Of a stretch of 64,000 nt of DNA, positions 7,955-62,888 are shown piece after piece. Made by a program: the position numbers and the translations under genes. The notes below the pieces were generated by a model. It ran no database searches. It saw nothing but the letters and a program-made list of their open reading frames with translations, and had not been told where the DNA came from. Positions within the stretch are counted from its first letter, which is position 1. Every line of letters starts with the position of its first letter. Source of the stretch: Tridacna crocea (lineage: Eukaryota > Mollusca > Bivalvia > Cardiida > Cardiidae); NCBI GenBank assembly GCA_943736015.1, contig OX031060.1, positions 3,616,001-3,680,000 on the forward strand, read 5' to 3'.

Positions 7955-8105
7955 ATCTATGAAAAGAGAGTTTAATGCATCTGCGAAAAGTATCGACCTG
8001 GGTCAGCCTGCGCAGTCCGCGCAGGCTGACCCTGGCCGAAACTTTTCGCTCCATTGGTTTATTTTCTGCATGTATAAGGATCAGTCTACCTCGTGATTTA
8101 GCCAT
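7955..8105. repeat. Family F palindrome
   Basis: The central stem is GGTCAGCCTGCGCAGTCCGC with its complement in GCGCAGGCTGACC, flanked by GCGAAAAGTATCG/CGAAACTTTTCGC. Outer arms include AATGCATC and CTACCTCGTGATTTA. Confidence 0.7.
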
Positions 8106-11577: not shown

Positions 11578-11771
11578 CAAAATTTAAGACTCGTCCAAAC
11601 TGAAAGCATTTTGCAGACGACAAATTGAATATACAACTTTAAATATTAAAGTTGTCTTTGTAAAGACAGAAAACCTTGTAGAAAAAGAAGGAGATGTTAT
11701 TTACAAGCATTTACTTCTTTTATCACAATGTTTTCAAAACTCCTCTTCGGCGTTTTTTGGTATAGGGTTAA
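11574..11771 (-). mobile_element. Family A MITE, diverged
   Basis: Minus copy with a diverged stem (GTTATTTACAAGCATTTAC). It shares a TTAA with the copies on both sides. Confidence 0.65.
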
Positions 11772-11885: not shown

Positions 11886-12119
11886 TTAACCCTTTACCAA
11901 ACAATCCCTGGTTTTTATGACCCTGAGATAGAAGCTTTTTGAAAACACTGTGGGGGTTTGAAAAGGAGAAAATGCTGGTATCCAATATATCCTCCTTTTC
12001 CAAAACTTTTTGTACCCTCCTGGAGATGAATTTCAATTTTTGATTTACGTTTAATTTGTTGTCTTCGGGTGCTTTCTGTTTGGACCAGTCTAAAATTTTG
12101 TCATTCGGTAAAGAGTTAA
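11886..12119 (+). mobile_element. Family A MITE, nested
   Basis: TTAACCCTTTACCAAACAAT to AAAGAGTTAA. The stem carries a short insertion (GGGGGTTTG) and several changes. Confidence 0.8.
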
Positions 12120-12344
12120 CCCTTTACTCCATATATACTCATTTCAACGCATTGCTTGCAAGAGCCTTTGGAAAACATTGTGGCAAAAGGTGAAACTGCT
12201 CGTGACGAGCAATTTCACCTTTTGCCACAATGTTTTCTACACTATCAAAAGGTGTCATATACACATAAGAAACGGCTTCATCCTCGCTGTTATTTAGGGT
12301 CAGTTAGAGATACCATAGAAATGCCTTATGGGGTAAAGGGTTAA
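12116..12344 (+). mobile_element. Family B MITE, full length
   Basis: TTAACCCTTTACTCCATATA to GGGGTAAAGGGTTAA. The stem is GTGGCAAAAGGTGAAA with centre GCTCGTGACGAGC. It shares its left TTAA with the preceding A copy. Confidence 0.88.
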
Positions 12345-12685: not shown

Positions 12686-12911
12686 TTAAATCTCTCCAAG
12701 AAAATCTTTTGTTTAAACGAAGCTGAAGAAGAAGGCTTTTGAAAACCTGGGAAAAGGCTAAAATGCTGTTCATCAGCATTTTAGACTTTTCACACAATGT
12801 TTTCCATCCTCTCTGAGTCAAATACCGCCATTTGAGACACGTATAATTCGTCGTCTGCAAATGCTTTGGACAAGACTAAAATTTTGTCGTTTTGTAAATC
12901 CATGTAGTTAA
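12686..12911 (+). mobile_element. Family A MITE with mirrored stem changes
   Basis: TTAA at both ends. The stem word GAGAAAATGC has become GCTAAAATGC. The opposite arm carries the matching GCATTTTAGA, so two substitutions are mirrored. Confidence 0.75.
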
Positions 12912-16012: not shown

Positions 16013-16231
16013 ACCACACAATCCCTACTTTTGACGCCCCTGAAAAAGAAGCCTTTTGAAAACACTGTGGGAAAAGGAGAAAATGCTGGTAACCAGCATT
16101 TTCTCCTTTTCCCACAGTGTTTTCTACCCTTCCAAGAACAAATTTCAATGTTTCAGTCACTTGTATTTTGTCGTCTGCAAATGCTTTCAATTTGGACCAG
16201 TCTAAAATTTTCTCGTGTGGTAAAGAGTTAA
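16013..16231 (+). mobile_element. Family A MITE, subfamily c
   Basis: TTAACCCATTACCACACAAT start. Both arms carry the subfamily change (AACACTGTGGG and CCCACAGTGTT). Confidence 0.9.
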
Positions 16232-17014: not shown

Positions 17015-17090
17015 CGGACAGTGTAGATACGAGATCAGACTGCAATTTCTGTGCAGTCTGATCTCGTATCTACACCGTCCGACGTTTTTA
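17015..17090. repeat. Family C core stem
   Basis: GCGGACAGTGTAGATACGAG pairs with the right arm ending CTACACCGTCCG. The core is GACTGCA ATTTC TGTGCAGTC-like. The CGAG change is mirrored in both arms (AGATACGAGATC and GATCTCGTATCT). Confidence 0.75.
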
Positions 17091-17860: not shown

Positions 17861-18089
17861 TTAACCCATTACCACACAATCCCTACTTTTGAAGCCCCTG
17901 ATAAAGAAGCCTTGTGAAAACACTATGGGAAAAGGAGAAAATGCTGATAACCAGCATTTTCTCCTTTTCCCACAGTGTTTTCTACCCTTCCCAGAACAAA
18001 TTTCTATTTTTCAGTCACCTTTATTTTGTCGTCTGCAAAAGCTTTCAATTTGGACCAGTCTAAAATTTTCTCGTGTGCTAAAGAGTTAA
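17861..18089 (+). mobile_element. Family A MITE, subfamily c, nested in D
   Basis: TTAACCCATTACCACAC to AAAGAGTTAA. The left arm has CACTATGGG and the right CCCACAGTG. Confidence 0.88.
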
Positions 18090-21564: not shown

Positions 21565-21793
21565 TTAACCCATTACCACACAATCCCTACTTTTGACGCC
21601 CCTGAGAAAGAAACCTTTTGAAAACACTGTGGGAAAAGGAGAAAATGCTGGTAACCAGCATTTTCTCCTTTTCCCACACTGTTTTCTACCCTTCCCAGAA
21701 CAAATTTCAATTTTTCAGACACCTTTATTTTGTTGTCTGCAAATGCTTTCAATTTGGGCAAGTGTATTATTTTCTTGTGTGGGAAAGGCTTAA
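21565..21793 (+). mobile_element. Family A MITE, subfamily c, nested
   Basis: TTAACCCATTACCACACAAT to GGGAAAGGCTTAA. Left arm CACTGTGGG, right arm CCCACACTG. Confidence 0.85.
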
Positions 21794-22685: not shown

Positions 22686-23129
22686 TCGGTGAAAGATCGA
22701 AATTTGTTTCATCGGGTGGACACCATCGGTAATATTTTCACGAGTGGCGCAGCCACGAGTGAAAATATTACCGATGTGTTCACGAGATGAAATAAATTTC
22801 GATCTTTCACCGAAAAAAAAATATTCTATTTATATCATGCTTTTAACCCTTTCTGGGAGGAGTTTTATCAAAATCCAGTTACGCAGTATAGTTCTTTTCC
22901 ATTATTCCCCGTGGCGTACCCATCCCGCATAGCAACACATTACAATATTACGTCAAGCTCGAGAAATGTAAGGTATATGACGTTATATTTACCATCTGGT
23001 TGCCAGGCACGCGCAATTTACCTAGGCAACAAGAACATGAAAATCGGTATTTTCACTGGTGGTACCAGTGTAAGATCGAAAAATATTTTCACTGCTATTT
23101 CTCGATATCCTACCGGAAAGCATGAAATA
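22686..23129 (+). repeat. Family E repeat, copy 2
   Basis: Begins with a hairpin, GGTGAAAGATCGAAATTTG facing AAATTTCGATCTTTCACC. Inside that, ATCGGTAATATTTTCACGAG faces CGTGAAAATATTACCGAT around GTGGCGCAGCCAC. It then continues as the mirror image of 1551-1960. Confidence 0.8.
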
Positions 23130-23403
23130 AGTGTTTCTACCCCTCTTTCCTCAGAGTGTTGTGCATTTATTTTCCTGTCCTGCAACTGTTTGTCTTTTTG
23201 TCTATAAATTTTGAAAATATGATAAGTTTTGTAGGCCAAAAAATATAGTAAATTAGTTAGTCAATATTCTAGACCTACGCCCATCCACATTCCAATCCGA
23301 AGAATAGCTTGGTATCTTTTTTCATTGACAATGCATGCCTATTCTTTTTCTTTAGAAATTATATTTTTGTGTCATCAAATATTGGTTTACGTATTCCCTC
23401 CTT

Positions 23404-23638
23404 CACCCTTTACTCCATTGATACTCACTTCTAAACATTGCTTGTAGGAGCCTTTGGAAAACATTGTGGCAAAAGGTGAAATTGCTCGTGACGAGCAATT
23501 TCACCTTTTGCCACAATGTTTTCTACACTATCAAAAGGTATCATGTGCATATAAGAAATAGCTTCATCCTTGCTGTTATTTAGGGCCAATTTGAGATACC
23601 ATAGAAAATTTGAAATGCCTTATGGGGTATAGGGTTAA
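23404..23638 (+). mobile_element. Family B MITE
   Basis: CACCCTTTACTCCATTGATA to GGGTATAGGGTTAA, with a perfect 33-nt-arm stem around GCTCGTGACGAGC. Confidence 0.88.
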
Positions 23639-24866: not shown

Positions 24867-25034
24867 GGGCCCGTATTCACCAACCATTCTTGAGAATATT
24901 CTTAATCTTATTCTCCAAGGTTTTCTAAATTTGTAAGTAACACAACTTCTGATTGGCTAAACCGAATGGTTTAGCCAATCAGAAGTTGTGTTACTTACAG
25001 ATGTAAGAGAATAAAACAAAGAACATTATAGTCC
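24867..25034. mobile_element. Family D element, right end truncated
   Basis: GGGCCCGTATTCACCAACC start. Perfect inner arms flank GGCTAAACC GAAT GGTTTAGCC. The terminal right arm is replaced by CCCTTTTCACAGAGCATGGG. Confidence 0.8.
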
Positions 25035-25562: not shown

Positions 25563-25797
25563 GGTGTAATGCAGAGAAATGACCCTCCCCTACAAAATGG
25601 CCGGTATGTCATATAGAGAAATGATGCATGGGTCATTTCACTACGTAGAGAAATAACCCGGGTCATTATTCTACGTAGAGAAAATAACCCTCAGGTTTCA
25701 TTTCTCTACGTAGAGTAATGACCCGGGTCATTCCTCTACATAGTGAAATGACCCATGGGTCATTTTGTAGGGTAGGGTCATTTCTTTGCATTACACC
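25563..25797. mobile_element. 235-bp palindromic MITE
   Basis: Termini GGTGTAATGC/GCATTACACC are extended by AGAAATGACCCT and CCCTACAAAATG with imperfect inversion. The interior is a chain of small palindromes: CTACGTAGAGAAAT, ACCCGGGT and CCATGGGTCATT. Confidence 0.8.
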
Positions 25798-26488: not shown

Positions 26489-26753
26489 ATGGAGTGCAAC
26501 ACGCGAAAAGGTGCATTCGGACATTTGCGTAAAGTGTCGTCCCTGATTAGCCTGCGCAGTCCGCGCAGGCTAATCCGAGACGGCACTTTACGACTACATT
26601 AGATTTTGTGTTACAGTAGACTTGCGTAAAACAGAAAATCACATAAAATCGGAAAGTATCGTTTTGGATTAGCCTGTGCGGACTGCAAACGCTGATCAGA
26701 GACGACACTTTACGCAATTGTCCGAATGACCCTTTTCGTGTGTTGCACTCCAT
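26489..26753. mobile_element. Family F element, complete
   Basis: TIRs ATGGAGTGCAACAC and its complement. Each half holds a GC stem: GATTAGCCTGCGCAGTCCGC facing GCGCAGGCTAATC, and GATTAGCCTGTGCGGACTGC facing a decayed partner. The flanking words GCGTAAAGTGTCGT and ACGACACTTTACGC also pair. A hairpin-of-hairpins layout. Confidence 0.82.
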
Positions 26754-28450: not shown

Positions 28451-28678
28451 TTAACCTTTTACCAAACAATCCCTGGTTTCTACTATCCTGAGATAGAAGG
28501 CTTTTTGAAAACATTGTGGGAAAAGGAGAAAATGCTGGTAACCAGCATTTTCTCCTTTTCCCACAATGTTTTCTACTCTGCTGGAAACAAATTTCAATTT
28601 TTCAGTTGCGTTTATTTTGTCGTCTGCAAGTGCTTTCAATTTGGACCAGTCTAAAATTTTGTCGTTTGGTAAAGAGTG
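28451..28678 (+). mobile_element. Family A MITE
   Basis: TTAACCTTTTACCAAACAAT start. The 67-bp stem is perfect apart from its centre base. The right end is AAAGAGTGAA (mutated TTAA). Confidence 0.88.
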
Positions 28679-32805: not shown

Positions 32806-33032
32806 TTAACACTTTACCCCGTAAGGCATTTCTATGACATCCCTTATTGACCCTAAATGACAGGAAGGATGAAGCTGTTTCTTATGTATAAATGACACCT
32901 TGATAGCATAGAAAACATTGTATCAAAAGGTGAAATTGCTTGTCATGAGCAATTTCACCTTTTGCCACAATGTTTTCCAAACGCTCCTACAAGCAATGTG
33001 TAGAAATGAGTATCTATGGAGTAAAGGGTTAA
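32806..33032 (-). mobile_element. Family B MITE
   Basis: TTAACACTTTACCCCGTAAG to GGAGTAAAGGGTTAA. One arm has CATTGTATCAAAAGG against CCTTTTGCCACAATG (not mirrored). Confidence 0.85.
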
Positions 33033-33845: not shown

Positions 33846-34041
33846 GGGCCCTTATTCACCAACCATTCTTAAGAATGTATTTTGTCTTATTCTCCAGAAT
33901 TTTGGACATTTGTAAGAAACACAACTTCCGATTGGCTAAACCATTTGGTGAACCAATCAGAAGTTGTGTTAGTTACAAATTCAGAAAACCTTGGAGAATA
34001 AGACAAAGAATATTCTCAAGAATGGTTGGTGAATACATGCC
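33846..34041. mobile_element. Family D palindromic element
   Basis: GGGCCCTTATTCACCAACC to GGTTGGTGAATAC. The centre GGCTAAACCATTTGGTGAACC has lost perfect pairing. Confidence 0.8.
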
Positions 34042-35074: not shown

Positions 35075-35179
35075 GGCTTTTTAGCACACTGACTCAAGAC
35101 TTTGCCACACAGCAAAAATGTAAATTTTTGCCAACAATTTAAAGTTGGCTAATATTTGAATTTGTCTTCCACATCAGAA

Positions 35180-35360
35180 CTCAAGATAGGAAGTGCTTTT
35201 GATTTCAAAATTGAAAATATTCATTATTTAGTACTAAACCCTGTGTTGTGGGTACTCATTAAAATTGTTTCAACCAGACAATTTTAATGAGTATCCACAA
35301 CATAGGGTTTTGAAGAGAAACAATGACATTAGAATACCTTTACTGACTTCTTATCTGGAG
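35180..35360. mobile_element. Family H palindromic element
   Basis: CTCAAGATAGGAAGTG to CTTATCTGGAG ends. The central palindrome is GTTGTGGGTACTCATTAAAA with its complement. Confidence 0.75.
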
Positions 35361-35389
35361 CTCTGTTTCACCTGGTAGAAAAGATCACA

Positions 35390-38467: not shown

Positions 38468-38699
38468 CCCTTTGCCAAACATCATCATGAGCCCTGGTTT
38501 TTACGTGTCTGCAATATAAGTCTTTTGAAAACATTGTGGGAAAAGGAGAAATTGCTCATAACAAGCAATTTCTCCTTTTCCCACAGTGTTTTCTATCCTT
38601 GTGGAGAACTTTCAGTCATTTTCATCAAGTTTAGAATTGTCATCTGCAATCTCTTTCAGTTTGAAAGAGTCTAAAATTTGTCGTTTAGGAAAGAGTTAA
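38464..38699 (+). mobile_element. Family A MITE with B-like stem tip
   Basis: TTAA both ends. The stem is A-type outside (GTGGGAAAAGGAGAAA) but the tip reads GAAATTGCT/AGCAATTTC as in family B, mirrored in both arms. Confidence 0.82.
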
Positions 38700-41212: not shown

Positions 41213-41705
41213 AAGGACCACCAGATAACCAAACAGTTATGGAATCCCATGCTGTGTCTTGGTAGATGTTACATTGTTCCAGTTTGTCCAGCTGATGGTA
41301 TCTCTTCAAACAAGATAATGGTTGCCAGGAGAACATGTCTTTTACATTTCCTTTTACATCGATGTCATTCATCACATCAGTCTGAGGCTTCCTCAGGTTC
41401 CAGATATCTATAGTTGGTTACCCTTTCGGGTATTGGATATTGGGTTCGCTGCAAAAATATAATTTCCCCCAAAACAGGTATGGCAGTCAAAAGCCCCTTC
41501 ACAATTTTACAAGGGCGGTCATTATCCCCTTCATCAAATTTTAAAGGCGGTCAAAAGCCCCTTTGCGATTTCGCAAGGGTGGTCATTATCCCCTTGATCC
41601 AATCTTTCGGGCGGACAACAGCCCCTTTACATGGGCTAGCGTTTCCCTTTGTGATTTCTAACGAAGAAATAAAATAATTTCAGTGTCGTACCTGTGCCTT
41701 GCATC

Positions 41706-42315: not shown

Positions 42316-42696
42316 ATCAATTCTATATCCATATCCGATAATTTCACACATTAGTGTAGACATGTATATGTATATTTTACAAGTGTTCTATTTCAAAGCG
42401 ATTATCAGACTTCATGTCTACGGAGGGGATAATGTCGGCATGGTTACCATTCATAGGGACTTTTGTCTGCTTCTGATAAATGGGCCTTTGACCACCATCA
42501 AAATATGATGAAGGGGATAATGACCGCCCTTGCGAAATCGCGAAGGGGCTTTTGACCTCCTTTAAAATTTGATGAAGGGGATAATGACCGCCCTTGCAAA
42601 TTTTCAAAGGGGCTTTTGACCGCCATACCTGTTTTGGGGGTAGGGGATAATGACCGGAGGGGCTTTTGACCGTTTACCGTGAATATACAGCTTAAA

Positions 42697-43453: not shown

Positions 43454-43884
43454 GGCCCGCATTCACCAACCATTCTTGAGAATATTCTTAGTCTTATTCC
43501 CTAAGGTTTTCTAAATTTGTAAGTAACACAACTTTTGACTGGCTAAACTGACTGGTTTAGCCAATCAGAATTGTGTTACTAACAAATGTTGAAAATTCTG
43601 GAGAATAAGACAAAGAATGTTCTTAAGAATAAAGTTAGTTAACCCTTTACCAAATAATCCCTGGTTTTTATGACCCTGAGATAGAAGCCTTTTGAAAACA
43701 TTGTGGGAAAAGGAGAAAATGCTGGTAACCAGCATTTTCTCCTTTTCCCACAATGTTTTCTACCCTACTCGAAACAAATTTCAATATTTGAGTCATGTTT
43801 ATTTTGTCGTCTGCAAGTGGTTTCAATTTGGACCAGCGAGTCTGAAATTTTATCGTTTGGTAAAGAGTTAATATTATAAGGCCC
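43454..43884. mobile_element. Family D element interrupted by A
   Basis: GGCCCGCATTCACCAACC start. Centre GGCTAAACTGACTGGTTTAG. The right tip continues after 43871 as ATTATAAGGCCC. Confidence 0.75.
43639..43871 (+). mobile_element. Family A MITE nested in D
   Basis: TTAA both ends. The stem is perfect except for its centre base. Confidence 0.9.
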
Positions 43885-48672: not shown

Positions 48673-48904
48673 TTAACTCGTTACCAAATGACTAAGTTTT
48701 AGACCTGTCCAAATTGAAAGCATTTGCAGATGACCATAATAAATGTTGTTGAAAAATTGATATTTGTTGTTGGAAGGGTAGAAAACATTGTGGGAAGAGG
48801 AGAAAATGCTGGTCACCAGCATTTTCTCCTCTTCACACAATGTTTTCAAAAGGCTTCTTGCATAGGGTTGTTAAAAGTTCAGGGATTGTGTGGCAATGGA
48901 TTAA
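48673..48904 (-). mobile_element. Family A MITE with mirrored A>G
   Basis: TTAACTCGTTACCAAATGAC to GGCAATGGATTAA. GGGAAGAGG in one arm is matched by CCTCTTC in the other. Confidence 0.87.
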
Positions 48905-49126: not shown

Positions 49127-49368
49127 TGAACACCAGGGTCTGCGTTAATTTTAGTTTGTATAGAAATAGCCTGGGTAATGGTTGTTGGAATCTCTTAGAA
49201 AGCAACAGAAAGTAAAGATCTTAAGATCAGACAGCAAGCTCTGTATTTTGATCTGGTTTTACACTGCCAGCATTTGTTATTAAATTGTGCAATATGAACT
49301 CCAAAATTAATTTATTTGCCTTGATCCTGATACAGATGTATTATGACATCCATAATGCTTCATCAGAA

Positions 49369-49552
49369 CTCCAGATACAGGGAGTATTCTTGATTTCAAA
49401 ATTGAAAATATTGATAAATCTCCTCTAAAGTCTATGTTATGGGTACTCATTAGAATCGTCTCAGTGAGACGATTCTAATGAGTACCCACAACTTAGGGTT
49501 TGGAAGACAAATAACAGATTTAGATTACCATTACTCCCTGGCTTATCTGGAG
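49369..49552. mobile_element. Family H palindromic element
   Basis: CTCCAGATACAGGGAGT to GGCTTATCTGGAG. Central palindrome GGGTACTCATTAGAATCGTC with complement around TCAGTGA. Confidence 0.82.
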
Positions 49553-49608
49553 CTGTTTCATGAAGTTTCTTTCTGAATACCTTGCATTTTGATGATAGGT
49601 AGTCGGAG

Positions 49609-49790
49609 CTCCAGATAAAGGGAGTGATTTTGATACAAAAATTGAAAATATTAATAATTTTCTTCTAAACCCTATGTTGTGGGTACTCAATAGAATCGTC
49701 TCATTGAGACGATTCTAATGAGTACCCACAACATAGGGTTTGGAAGACAAATAATGAATTAATATTACCATCACTTCCACTTATCTGGAG
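49609..49790. mobile_element. Family H palindromic element
   Basis: CTCCAGATAAAGGGAGTG to CACTTCCACTTATCTGGAG. Lies 56 bp from the preceding H copy in the same orientation. Confidence 0.85.
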
Positions 49791-50086
49791 CTCTGTTTCA
49801 TGAATTTTTTGTCTGGAATATCTTGCATTTTGATGATTATGTAGTTGAATAGCCGGTTAGATAGACTGACTAGTTACATCTAAGAATCATATGAAACTCT
49901 TGGACATGCTGATGTTGTGTTTTCAAGAGATTGAAGTAGAAAGCAGATAAATGTGTTCTTTTCTCATAATATAGCTAGGTTGTTAATGCATTGTCTCGGT
50001 TAGTATTATCATGATTATCAGGAATGTAGTTCTTAGGATATTGACATGACTTTTGGTGGTCAGAGCATTCCCTTCTTTCTTAACCC

Positions 50087-52236: not shown

Positions 52237-53767
52237 TACCCAAAGGAAAAAGAAACGCAGGGTAAAATAATATGGAATAACTTTCAAACGGCTTTGTCTA
52301 TTATCATGAAAATTGGTCAGGTTATTATCTCGGTCATTGTGTACTCAACACGGTAAGAAAAATTACCGACGCATGTAACGTACCGTGTCACGTAGTGCAA
52401 GTAGTGAAAAGCAAAAATTCCGTGCAGAATAAATCTGATTATTTCGTGAACACAGTTTTTCATATCATTCGATACTCTACAGATTTACACTCTGTTTTCA
52501 GTAGTTAAAACTCTATTTTAATTACCTACGGTAATGGCACGGCTTACGGAAATTCAGAGGGGTCAGGCCATTGCGTTACTAATGCAAGGTCAAACACAAC
52601 GGCAGGTTGCTATGCAGTTTGGCGTGAATGTTTCTACCATAGAACGACTTGTTCGTCGTCTTAGAGAAACTGGAAGGCTTGCCGACCGACCTCGAACAGG
52701 GCGTCCACGCGTAACGACACGACGTCAAGACAGGGCTATACGTCTTGCCCACCTGCGTAATCGATACGTTACTGCCACTGAAACTGCTTACAATACAATA
52801 GGCAATCATAACCGTCATATTCACCCCAAAACTGTAAGGAACCGATTACGTGAGGAGGGTCTGTGATGTAGACGTCCATGCGTTGGTCTGCCTCTCACTC
52901 GACCACGTCGCGTGCGTCGAATGGCTTGGTTGGCGGCACATGCCCCCAGAATATTTCCAATGAGGCAATGGAGACAGGTTTTTTTCACCGACGAGTCGCG
53001 ATTCACCCTTTTTCGTCCGGATGGTCGACGTCGTATATACCGTCGTCGTAGGGAACGTTTCGCCGACGCATGCGTTACTGAGGTGGATAGGTTTGGTGGT
53101 GGATCAGTTATGGTCTGGGGTGGAATATCTCACGGGGTTAAGTCACCGTTGGTTGTGTTGGGTGGAACTTTGACCGCCGTCAGGTATAGGGATGAAATCC
53201 TCCGCCCGGTTGCTGTTCCTTTAGTCCAACAACATAATCTCATTTTCCAACAAGACAATGCCCGACCTCATGTTGCGAGAGTTTGTAGACAGTTTCTGGC
53301 GAACCATAACATTCAGCCACTTGACTGGCCAGCCTATAGCCCAGATTTGTCCCCAATTGAACATCTTTGGGACGAACTGGACAGGAGGGTAAGGCGGCGT
53401 CAGAACACCCCCACCACGCTCGACCAACTGAGAAATGCCTTGTTGGAAGAGTGGAACAATATCCCCATGAGAAAGATAAACACTCTTATGAATTCAATGC
53501 ACAGGAGAATAAGGGCTGTGACTGCTGCGGGTGGTGGACATACCCGGTACTGAGAACTATACGCCGATTTGAAATTACGTTTTTGTGGGGTATCGCCGAA
53601 TTGGTTCAAATAACTCTAAAAGTAAAAGTCAAAATCCAGTGAAATTTTCAGAAATAATTCATGAAAGATAGTTCTTGATAGTGTAAAAAACAAAATTTAA
53701 TACCTTTCTTACAATTTACCATAAATGACCGATAAATTTTACCCTGCGTTTCTTTTTCCTTTGGGTA
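52237..53767 (+). mobile_element. Tc1-type DD34E transposon, complete
   Basis: 1531 bp. Perfect 32-bp terminal inverted repeats (52237-52268 and 53736-53767) begin TACCCAAAGGAAAAAGAAAC. They enclose one transposase frame with a single stop. Identical TIRs and an almost open frame point to recent insertion. Its GC-richer CDS contrasts with the surroundings. Non-coding parts are 52269-52533 and 53554-53735. Confidence 0.93.
52534..53553 (+). pseudogene. Tc1/mariner-superfamily transposase, one in-frame stop
   Basis: A DDE transposase that would cut and paste the surrounding element. The frame is 339 codons, normal for Tc1 proteins, broken only by TGA at 52864-52866 (codon 111). N-terminal helix-turn-helix: residues 4-50 with GQTQRQVAMQFGVNVSTIER. 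A GRPR minor-groove motif follows near residue 56. The catalytic triad is D153 (FFTDESRF), D241 (FQQDNARPH) and E276 (SPDLSPIEHLW), with exactly 34 residues between D241 and E276, so DD34E. The C-terminus ends at TGA after GGGHTRY. The stop is followed by Cys-Arg-Arg-Pro, where related proteins usually have an Arg-rich linker. It is most simply CGA to TGA by CpG deamination. Inactive as it stands unless read through. Confidence 0.93.
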
Positions 53768-54544: not shown

Positions 54545-54748
54545 CTTTTATCATCTCAAGAAATGAAGGCTTTTCAAAACATGGTGGGAAAAGGAGAAAA
54601 TGCTGGTAGCCAGCATTTTCTCCTTTTCTCACCATGTTTTTTACCTTTTCACAGACATAAAATTTGACTTGAGCTGTATAATGGTTCCTTATCTGAACTG
54701 CTTTGAACTTTGTATAAAATTTTGTAGTCTGGTAAAGAGTTGACCCTT
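54545..54748 (+). mobile_element. Family A MITE with mirrored T>G
   Basis: AACATGGTGGG faces TCACCATGTT. The rest of the stem is perfect apart from the GGTAGCC centre. Right end GGTAAAGAGTTGA. Confidence 0.8.
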
Positions 54749-54953: not shown

Positions 54954-55141
54954 AACTTAGCAACATTCTAGACTTGTCCAAATTAAAAGCATTTGCAGAC
55001 AACAATGTTACTGATTCTCAGAGAATTGAACTAGTCTTTGATTGGGTAAAAGCTTTAAGGGTAAAGAAAAAATGGCAAACTACTGGCTGCTTGTTGCTTT
55101 CTGAGGGTCGTTAAACTCCCAATTGTGTGGTAAAGACTTAA
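54950..55141 (-). mobile_element. Family A MITE, stem lost
   Basis: TTAACAACTTAGCAACATTC, GCATTTGCAGACAACAATG, GTGTGGTAAAGACTTAA. Confidence 0.68.
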
Positions 55142-55366
55142 TTCTTTACCCCATGACGCATTTCTATGGTGTCTCTAATTGACCCTAAATAACAGCAAGG
55201 ATGAAGCCTTTGCTTATGTGTATATAACACCTTTTGATATCATAGAAAATATTGTGACAAAAGGTGAAATTGCTCGTCACGAGCAATTTCACCTTTTGTC
55301 ACAATGTTTTCCAAAGGCTCCTACAAGCAATGCGTAGAAATGAGTATCTATTGAGTAAAGGGTTAA
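55138..55366 (-). mobile_element. Family B MITE with mirrored G>A
   Basis: TTAATTCTTTACCCCATGAC to TTGAGTAAAGGGTTAA. The arm TTGTGACAAAAGG is matched by CCTTTTGTCACAA. Confidence 0.9.
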
Positions 55367-62436: not shown

Positions 62437-62663
62437 CCCATTACTACACAATCCCTACTTTTGACGCCCCTGAGAGAGAAGCCTTTAGAAAACATTGTGG
62501 GAAAAGGAGAAAATGCTGGTTACCAGCATTTTCTCCTTTTCCCACAATGTTTTCTACGCTTCGCTAAGCAAATTTCAAATTTTCAGTCACTTTTATTTTG
62601 TCGTTACTGCAAATGCTTTCAATTTGGACCAGTCTTAAATATTGTCGTTTGGTAATGGGTTAA
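62433..62663 (+). mobile_element. Family A MITE
   Basis: TTAACCCATTACTACACAAT to GGTAATGGGTTAA. The stem is perfect. Confidence 0.9.
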
Positions 62664-62888
62664 CCCTTTACCACATCATCCCGACTTTTAACGATCCCAA
62701 GAAAAAATTCTTTTGAAAACATTGTAGGAAAAGGAGAAAATGCTGGTAACTAGCATTTTCTCCTTTTCCTATAATGTTTTCTACCCTTCCCAAATTAAAT
62801 TTTAATTTTTGAGTCATGTTGATTTTGTCGTCTGCAAATGCTTTCAATTTGGACAAGTCTAAAATTTTGTCATTTGGTAAAGAGTTAA
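62660..62888 (+). mobile_element. Family A MITE with mirrored G>A
   Basis: Shares TTAA 62660. TTGTAGGAAAAGG faces CCTTTTCCTATAA, a mirrored change plus one unpaired. Confidence 0.88.

Follow-up and report, generated by a model that had tools for sequence, protein, structure and literature searches.

A central 67-bp palindrome appears to be kept in paired form in the multiplying lineages of a small TTAA-ended element that crowds the window (the whole stretch of Tridacna crocea DNA analysed here, 64,000 nucleotides), and the copies, once inserted, then decay freely. We give this reading a rough probability of 0.54. It supposes that continued multiplication is largely confined to copies whose palindromic duplex is intact; the arms of a lineage would thus change slowly and in matched pairs, either by two compensating steps or by a single template-switch step. 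After insertion a copy would be released and both its arms would gather one-sided mutations independently, and mirrored changes in single copies would mostly be coincidence or belong to unsampled subfamilies. Most speculative is the proposal that the palindrome works as DNA, via cruciform extrusion or single-stranded folding; once folded it would bring the ends of the 229-bp element together for the transposase and would in this way have a role in transposition.

Architecture and abundance of the element

The palindrome consists of two 33-bp arms (arm sequence GAAAACATTGTGGGAAAAGGAGAAAATGCTGGT) around one centre base, and a profile search of the 64-kb window yielded 81 copies of it. It forms the core of a 229-bp element that is bounded by TTAA, starts with TTAACCCTTTACC and ends with GGTAAAGAGTTAA. 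Only the middle 67 bp are palindromic; beyond them just short end repeats match. A sister family (B), equal to the main family (A) in length and layout, accounts for six of the 81 copies, and both consensus sequences, at 229 bp each, leave no room for a transposase gene of their own. Several A palindromes equal the consensus (Table 1), and the one at 62488 departs from it solely at the centre.

Of 75 A copies, 28 have TTAA exactly at both aligned ends, 26 have it at a single end and 21 at neither; among the 58 better A copies 26 show it at both ends. The definition of piggyBac/TTAA MITEs includes a CC[C/T]T tip of the terminal inverted repeats (PMC2872659, available part of the text). This tip (CCCTTTAC) occurs at the left end of A and at either end of B, and the right end of A (CTCTTTACC) is one base off. 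Because of the TTAA ends, the near-standard termini and the small size, we assign the element, which is very abundant here, as far as its sequence tells to the non-autonomous piggyBac-type (TTAA) MITEs. Recognisable parts of this one type of element occupy 16,762 of the 64,000 bases. The density of MITEs is very high, with 81 right-flank matches at E < 1e-5 in 1-64000. At 11768, 12116, 33321, 55138 and 62660 two element ends adjoin with one TTAA common to both, which suggests insertion into the end TTAA of an earlier copy, leading to tandem arrays.

The window has a GC content of 34-38% and is eukaryote-like. A Pfam scan of nine open frames matched only two neighbouring pieces (helix-turn-helix models and DDE_3), and these form a broken transposase relic that we take to be Tc1-like. 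Exact-pattern scans of viral contigs gave no match. Tandem repeats with a 64-bp period lie at 41482-41631 and 42478-42626 and, by eye, seem to be inverted copies of each other.

Table 1. Positions in the window of the palindromes, elements and other features discussed in the text
Feature	Position	Strand	Remarks
Focal palindrome	48781..48847	-	arms 48781-48813 and 48815-48847, centre 48814
A-type MITE enclosing the focal palindrome	48674..48903	-	from flank-profile matches; right flank 48674-48778, left flank 48849-48903
Palindrome copy with diverged flanks	54575..54641	+	T9G mirrored
A-type MITE	62660..62888	+	palindrome 62715-62781, G12A mirrored; TTAA at 62660 common with the preceding element
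Old palindrome copy	12738..12804	+	A21C and G22T mirrored, adjacent pairs
B-family element	55138..55366	-	palindrome 55245-55311, G13A mirrored on B background
Reference B-family element, 229 bp	12116..12344	+	18-bp terminal inverted repeats (94%), palindrome 12171-12237; adjoins an A end, TTAA common to both
B-family element	23402..23638	+	33-bp arms perfect at 23457-23523
Consensus-perfect A palindrome	28507..28573	+	others at 43694, 47381, 50141
CACTGTG-subfamily palindrome	16058..16124	+	T8C mirrored; further members at 17916, 36534, 43146, 54018, and at 21620, where the arms disagree at this position
A-type element	38527..38593	+	A26T in both arms; position 31 altered in both arms, now unmatched; positions 14 and 21 A-type
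Different MITE with ends CAGAGCTCCAGATA, tandemly duplicated	49364..49842	+	central palindrome, arms of about 37 bp, 1-nt centre; duplication takes in about 45 bp beyond the element
Element of the third palindromic family (fold-back)	24908..25005	+	also 5265, 15084, 29909, 33853, 43472; arms 38-103 bp
Broken transposase relic	52522-53553		helix-turn-helix and DDE_3 parts share a frame, separated by a stop

Matched differences between families and subfamilies

The consensus arms of A and B differ at 8 of 66 bases, and these form four mirrored pairs out of four (unpolarised). The remaining 58 arm bases are equal, and the flanks of the two families barely align apart from the ends. Under random placement four mirrored pairs have a probability of about 9e-8, in a comparison that rests on two families within one 64-kb window. 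A mirrored change that defines a subfamily (CACTGTG) maps to one internal branch with six copies and is still matched in five of them; in the sixth, at 21620, the arms disagree at the T8C position.

The copy at 38527 has A-like flanks and carries, besides its two changed pairs (Table 1), neither of the remaining two B pairs. Its position 31 probably went through G31C and subsequent CpG decay, and the copy may possibly be an intermediate toward B, the pairs changing stepwise. At 32911, 34898 and 38527 arm CpG sites of B-type cores appear as TpG or CpA, as decay of methylated CpG would leave them.

Mirrored changes in single copies

The sequence-only reading had listed five copies with private changes mirrored in both arms and had held that independent mutation would rarely hit both partners. 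All five examples exist (Table 1; in the focal palindrome the mirrored change is A17G), while the positions named for them lie at or near the starts of the elements and the palindromes themselves elsewhere. The list had also passed over unmatched arm changes that occur in every one of the same five copies. Position 13 is changed in one arm of the focal palindrome; at 54575 position 1 is changed in both arms without matching, and positions 13 and 33 in one arm; at 62715 positions 10 and 31 are changed in one arm each; the palindrome at 12738 has a 3-base gap, one-arm changes at positions 10, 13 and 20 and a non-matching change at position 32; and the palindrome at 55245 is changed at position 6 in one arm.

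For a count over all copies both arms of the 81 palindromes were aligned, with the B and CACTGTG copies compared to their own consensus. There are 429 arm changes (219 in the left and 210 in the right arm), and 39 pair cells are changed on both sides, 18 of them mirrored and 21 not. The expected number of mirrored cells is 12.6 from row-by-column rates of copies and positions, and 14.4 +- 3.0 (p=0.14) if right arms are permuted among copies of similar load. The 57 better copies, a count that leaves out 24 of the 81, show six mirrored cells against 4.7 to 4.9 expected (p=0.32). An excess of private mirrored changes over chance is thus not supported.

The picture is different if a single A consensus is used for all copies, with 44 mirrored cells against 21.9 after permutation, and a naive covariation test on 45 chosen copies (41 distinct) found none of 500 shuffles that reached the observed value. 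We reject this naive excess as evidence, since much of it comes from two inherited groups, through the CACTGTG change and the four B pairs. With subfamily correction the mirrored cells fall from 44 to 18, so that over half were inherited. The explanation that the earlier reading had named as fatal to its own case, mirrored types being old subfamilies, indeed applies to the CACTGTG change and to the four B pairs.

Copying from arm to arm in inserted copies (snap-back, template switching or conversion between the arms) had been proposed as the source of private mirrored changes, and we consider it improbable. It draws on the copy at 12738 with its two adjacent mirrored changes and on the copy at 35236 of another family with two mirrored pairs, each of which possibly reflects one event, on the residual excess of about 3.6 mirrored pairs, itself non-significant, and on the fact that template switching yielding compensatory changes in hairpins is already published (PMC8794818, as far as the accessible text goes). 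Against it stand the lack of significance in both counts above, the 21 cells that were changed in both arms without mirroring, and the divergence of the arms: unbiased copying would leave it equal to that of the flanks and would not slow the arms, but it is actually about half. A few real arm-to-arm events may be present among the private cases, with 12738 as the best candidate; since private mirrored changes are near chance, such copying after insertion is not needed. Unbiased arm-to-arm correction alone was rejected as well: under it every change should be matched and the rate should stay as it was, and it fails because single copies show few matched changes together with a slowed rate.

Divergence of arms and flanks

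A sample of 55 separate copies was chosen by flank profiles only, 48 of which are also in the palindrome list. (Earlier pooled rates had dropped 14 of 73 flank-found rows, and at least two rows duplicated an element; the recount gave the 55 copies.) In this sample arms differ at 300 of 3459 sites (8.7%) and flanks at 1461 of 8281 (17.6%), and arm divergence is lower than flank divergence in 51 of the 55 copies (Wilcoxon p=4e-9).

Resolved into 11-bp segments in the 58 better A copies (a set that leaves out 17 of 75), arms diverge by 6.5-9.6% and flanks by 11.2-26.4%; the slow zone coincides with the palindrome. Its right edge is abrupt (9.6 to 24.6%) and its left edge gradual (23.7, 20.1, 14.4, then 9.0%). 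This left-hand gradient, stepping down toward the palindrome, fits conversion between different copies, begun by breaks at the palindrome and overwriting the core with the common sequence, and it slightly lowers the odds of our main reading. Long palindromes are established break-prone sites, and the core would be a likely place for breaks that start such conversion. The right side shows no gradient, however, its first flank segment being already at 24.6%, and differences between A and B that are matched only remain unexplained by conversion among copies, which we regard as very improbable.

The centre base of A diverges by 24.6% over the 58 copies, which exceeds all 66 arm columns and is flank-like (rank 38 of 162), with a composition of A43 T7 G5 C2 and one gap. 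The centre of B is G in six of six copies, so a freely varying centre is seen solely in family A. The composition of the A centre shows no clear surplus of the inversions that template switching may cause. Hypermutation of the centre was rejected, for the A centre varies as flank columns do and the B centre is fixed (6 copies).

Internal branches of a tree built from the flanks have a ratio of arm to flank change of 0.13, terminal branches one of 0.53. Parsimony assigns 20 single-arm changes to the internal branches and only a single mirrored one, many of them on small, doubtful groups; this count is the main weakness of the pairing reading, and pairing may not have been strict in every lineage. 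Among singletons of five tight clusters (31 copies) arms changed at 52 of 2033 sites and flanks at 283 of 4757, a ratio of 0.43. Terminal branches and singletons thus have slow arms as well, a counterpoint to free decay: it fits release after insertion only if those branches hold much unsampled lineage history.

The slow arms of the tight-cluster singletons would also be expected if paired arms protected each other after insertion, lesions being bypassed by copying the intact arm, with a lower mutation rate and no mirrored scars as a result. A tandem duplication of the other palindromic MITE (49364-49842) agrees with such protection in that the arms differ at 5 of 74 positions and the rest of the element at 21 of 114. 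Outside DNA in the same duplication differs at 5 of 48, not clearly above the arms, and these counts are too small to judge protection after insertion. Sparse sampling, which puts earlier lineage history on terminal branches, is another possible cause of the singleton result, and we hold mutual protection to be improbable. Segmental duplicates carrying the element were sought in the window and no usable pair was found.

That there is no pairing constraint at all, and that subfamily inheritance, chance double hits and base composition or ascertainment produce the whole pattern, is hardly credible. Inheritance does explain over half of the mirrored cells. Nevertheless, base-corrected expectations for the singletons exceed the observed counts in all five clusters, flank-only sampling gives the same slow arms, and the four mirrored A/B pairs are not randomly placed. 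The earlier proposal that selection keeps the stem paired is supported for the multiplying lineages, with the four A/B pairs, the CACTGTG change, the slow arms and the free centre of A in its favour, and not for each inserted copy.

Nature of the constraint

Within base classes the constraint is near uniform over the 33 arm positions (dispersion p=0.06-0.08), a profile more to be expected of pairing than of a motif. A point on the other side is that among G/C positions the outer half of the arm changes more (16.0 per pair, as against 9.6 in the inner half). Transitions of the wobble type (71) and the non-wobble type (79) are about equally frequent (p=0.57), so the asymmetry expected from RNA wobble is absent; a search of Rfam gave no match at the gathering threshold and a tRNA search found none. 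Selection on RNA was rejected on these grounds. GC-biased correction was likewise rejected, both transition classes being roughly halved in the arms, as follows from arithmetic on the rates. With this pattern of constraint a DNA palindrome agrees more closely than either a short binding motif or an RNA hairpin, and a long dyad protein site may fit it too.

Such a site would make each arm a half-site of a dimeric protein and the mirrored family differences a shift in the specificity of this protein. In its favour, a profile like the observed one would result from a dyad site whose centre base is free, the constraint varies somewhat along the arm, and in the ends of piggyBac and piggyBat the transposase dimer binds palindromic sites through two cysteine-rich domains (PMC11707139, available section). 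We nevertheless find this explanation unlikely: the constraint varies little across all 33 positions, the palindrome greatly exceeds in length the 19-bp ones that the accessible part of that paper gives for piggyBac (PMC11707139), and the four matched A/B changes would need repeated shifts of specificity.

Other palindromic families in the window

Besides this element, at least two palindromic families occur in the window. The MITE with CAGAGCTCCAGATA ends has a third copy (35176-35371) with mirrored arms, a longer spacer and two mirrored pairs. The fold-back family falls into two subfamilies, with two diagnostic pairs changed in both arms among five readable copies; private changes in these five comprise no mirrored pair and 14 one-arm changes. 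The count excludes the copy at 43494, which has a right-arm indel and with which the one-arm total rises to 29, and 7 of the 14 come from the copy at 33886, some of them beside a likely misaligned end. This family shows the contrast again: subfamily changes are matched and private changes are one-arm.

Further long palindromes outside MITE cores lie at 26489-26753, 25619-25765, 1060-1133, 7983-8049, 17015-17081 and 22724-22776; one shuffled control sequence gave none in the same scan.

A broader and tentative proposal, which we think doubtful at present, sees perfect central palindromes, with arms of about 33-37 bp around a single centre base, as a DNA device under selection whose pairing is required for transposition, a hinge or cruciform joining the ends of a stiff 200-bp element, and supposes that unrelated MITE families in one genome have reached it.

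Comparison with known systems and significance

Fold-back and Angel-type MITEs are hairpin-capable elements for which amplification via the hairpin has been proposed; the element described here shares the capability, but only its middle 67 bp are palindromic. The piggyBac and piggyBat transposons belong to the TTAA superfamily, which is a likeness to our element. The palindromic sites in their ends bind the transposase dimer; these are short and lie within the ends according to the text available (PMC11707139), whereas here a single long palindrome is central.

The closest likeness is found in the CMITEs of corals, described by Wang et al. (2010; PMC2872659, consulted in excerpt) as elements of about 100 bp with TTAA target, piggyBac-type termini and tandem neighbours. 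The internal region was suggested to matter for transposition, and its authors call the origin unclear (PMC2872659, same excerpt). Shared features, within what that excerpt covers, are TTAA, the piggyBac-type termini, a core that varies less from family to family than the outer parts do, and tandem neighbours. Unlike CMITEs as they appear there, which are about 100 bp long with another core, the element here has 229 bp and a 67-bp palindrome. A 17-base piece of the CMITE core has no match in the window at up to 3 mismatches, and the excerpted CMITE description contains no perfect palindrome or compensatory change (PMC2872659).

Template-switch mutations create and maintain RNA hairpins, as inferred in RNA genes (Monttinen and Loytynoja 2022, PMC8794818, available portion). 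The likeness to that account lies in matched changes in both stem halves, possibly from one event; unlike in its RNA hairpins, changes at the level of copies are mostly unmatched here and RNA wobble has left no trace. On the evidence of that portion, template switching comes closest to a mechanism by which matched changes could arise in one step (PMC8794818). Among the matches listed for the open-licence PMC literature, in the extracts these provide, there was no TTAA MITE with compensating changes in a central palindrome.

Covariation in repeat families, as this case cautions, can be inherited structure at the level of lineages and not arm-to-arm copying in single copies. The coral paper of 2010, in its available part, left unanswered why an internal core is better preserved than the ends in some TTAA MITEs (PMC2872659). 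In the present element the core is palindromic, and the data suggest that pairing is kept and not sequence.
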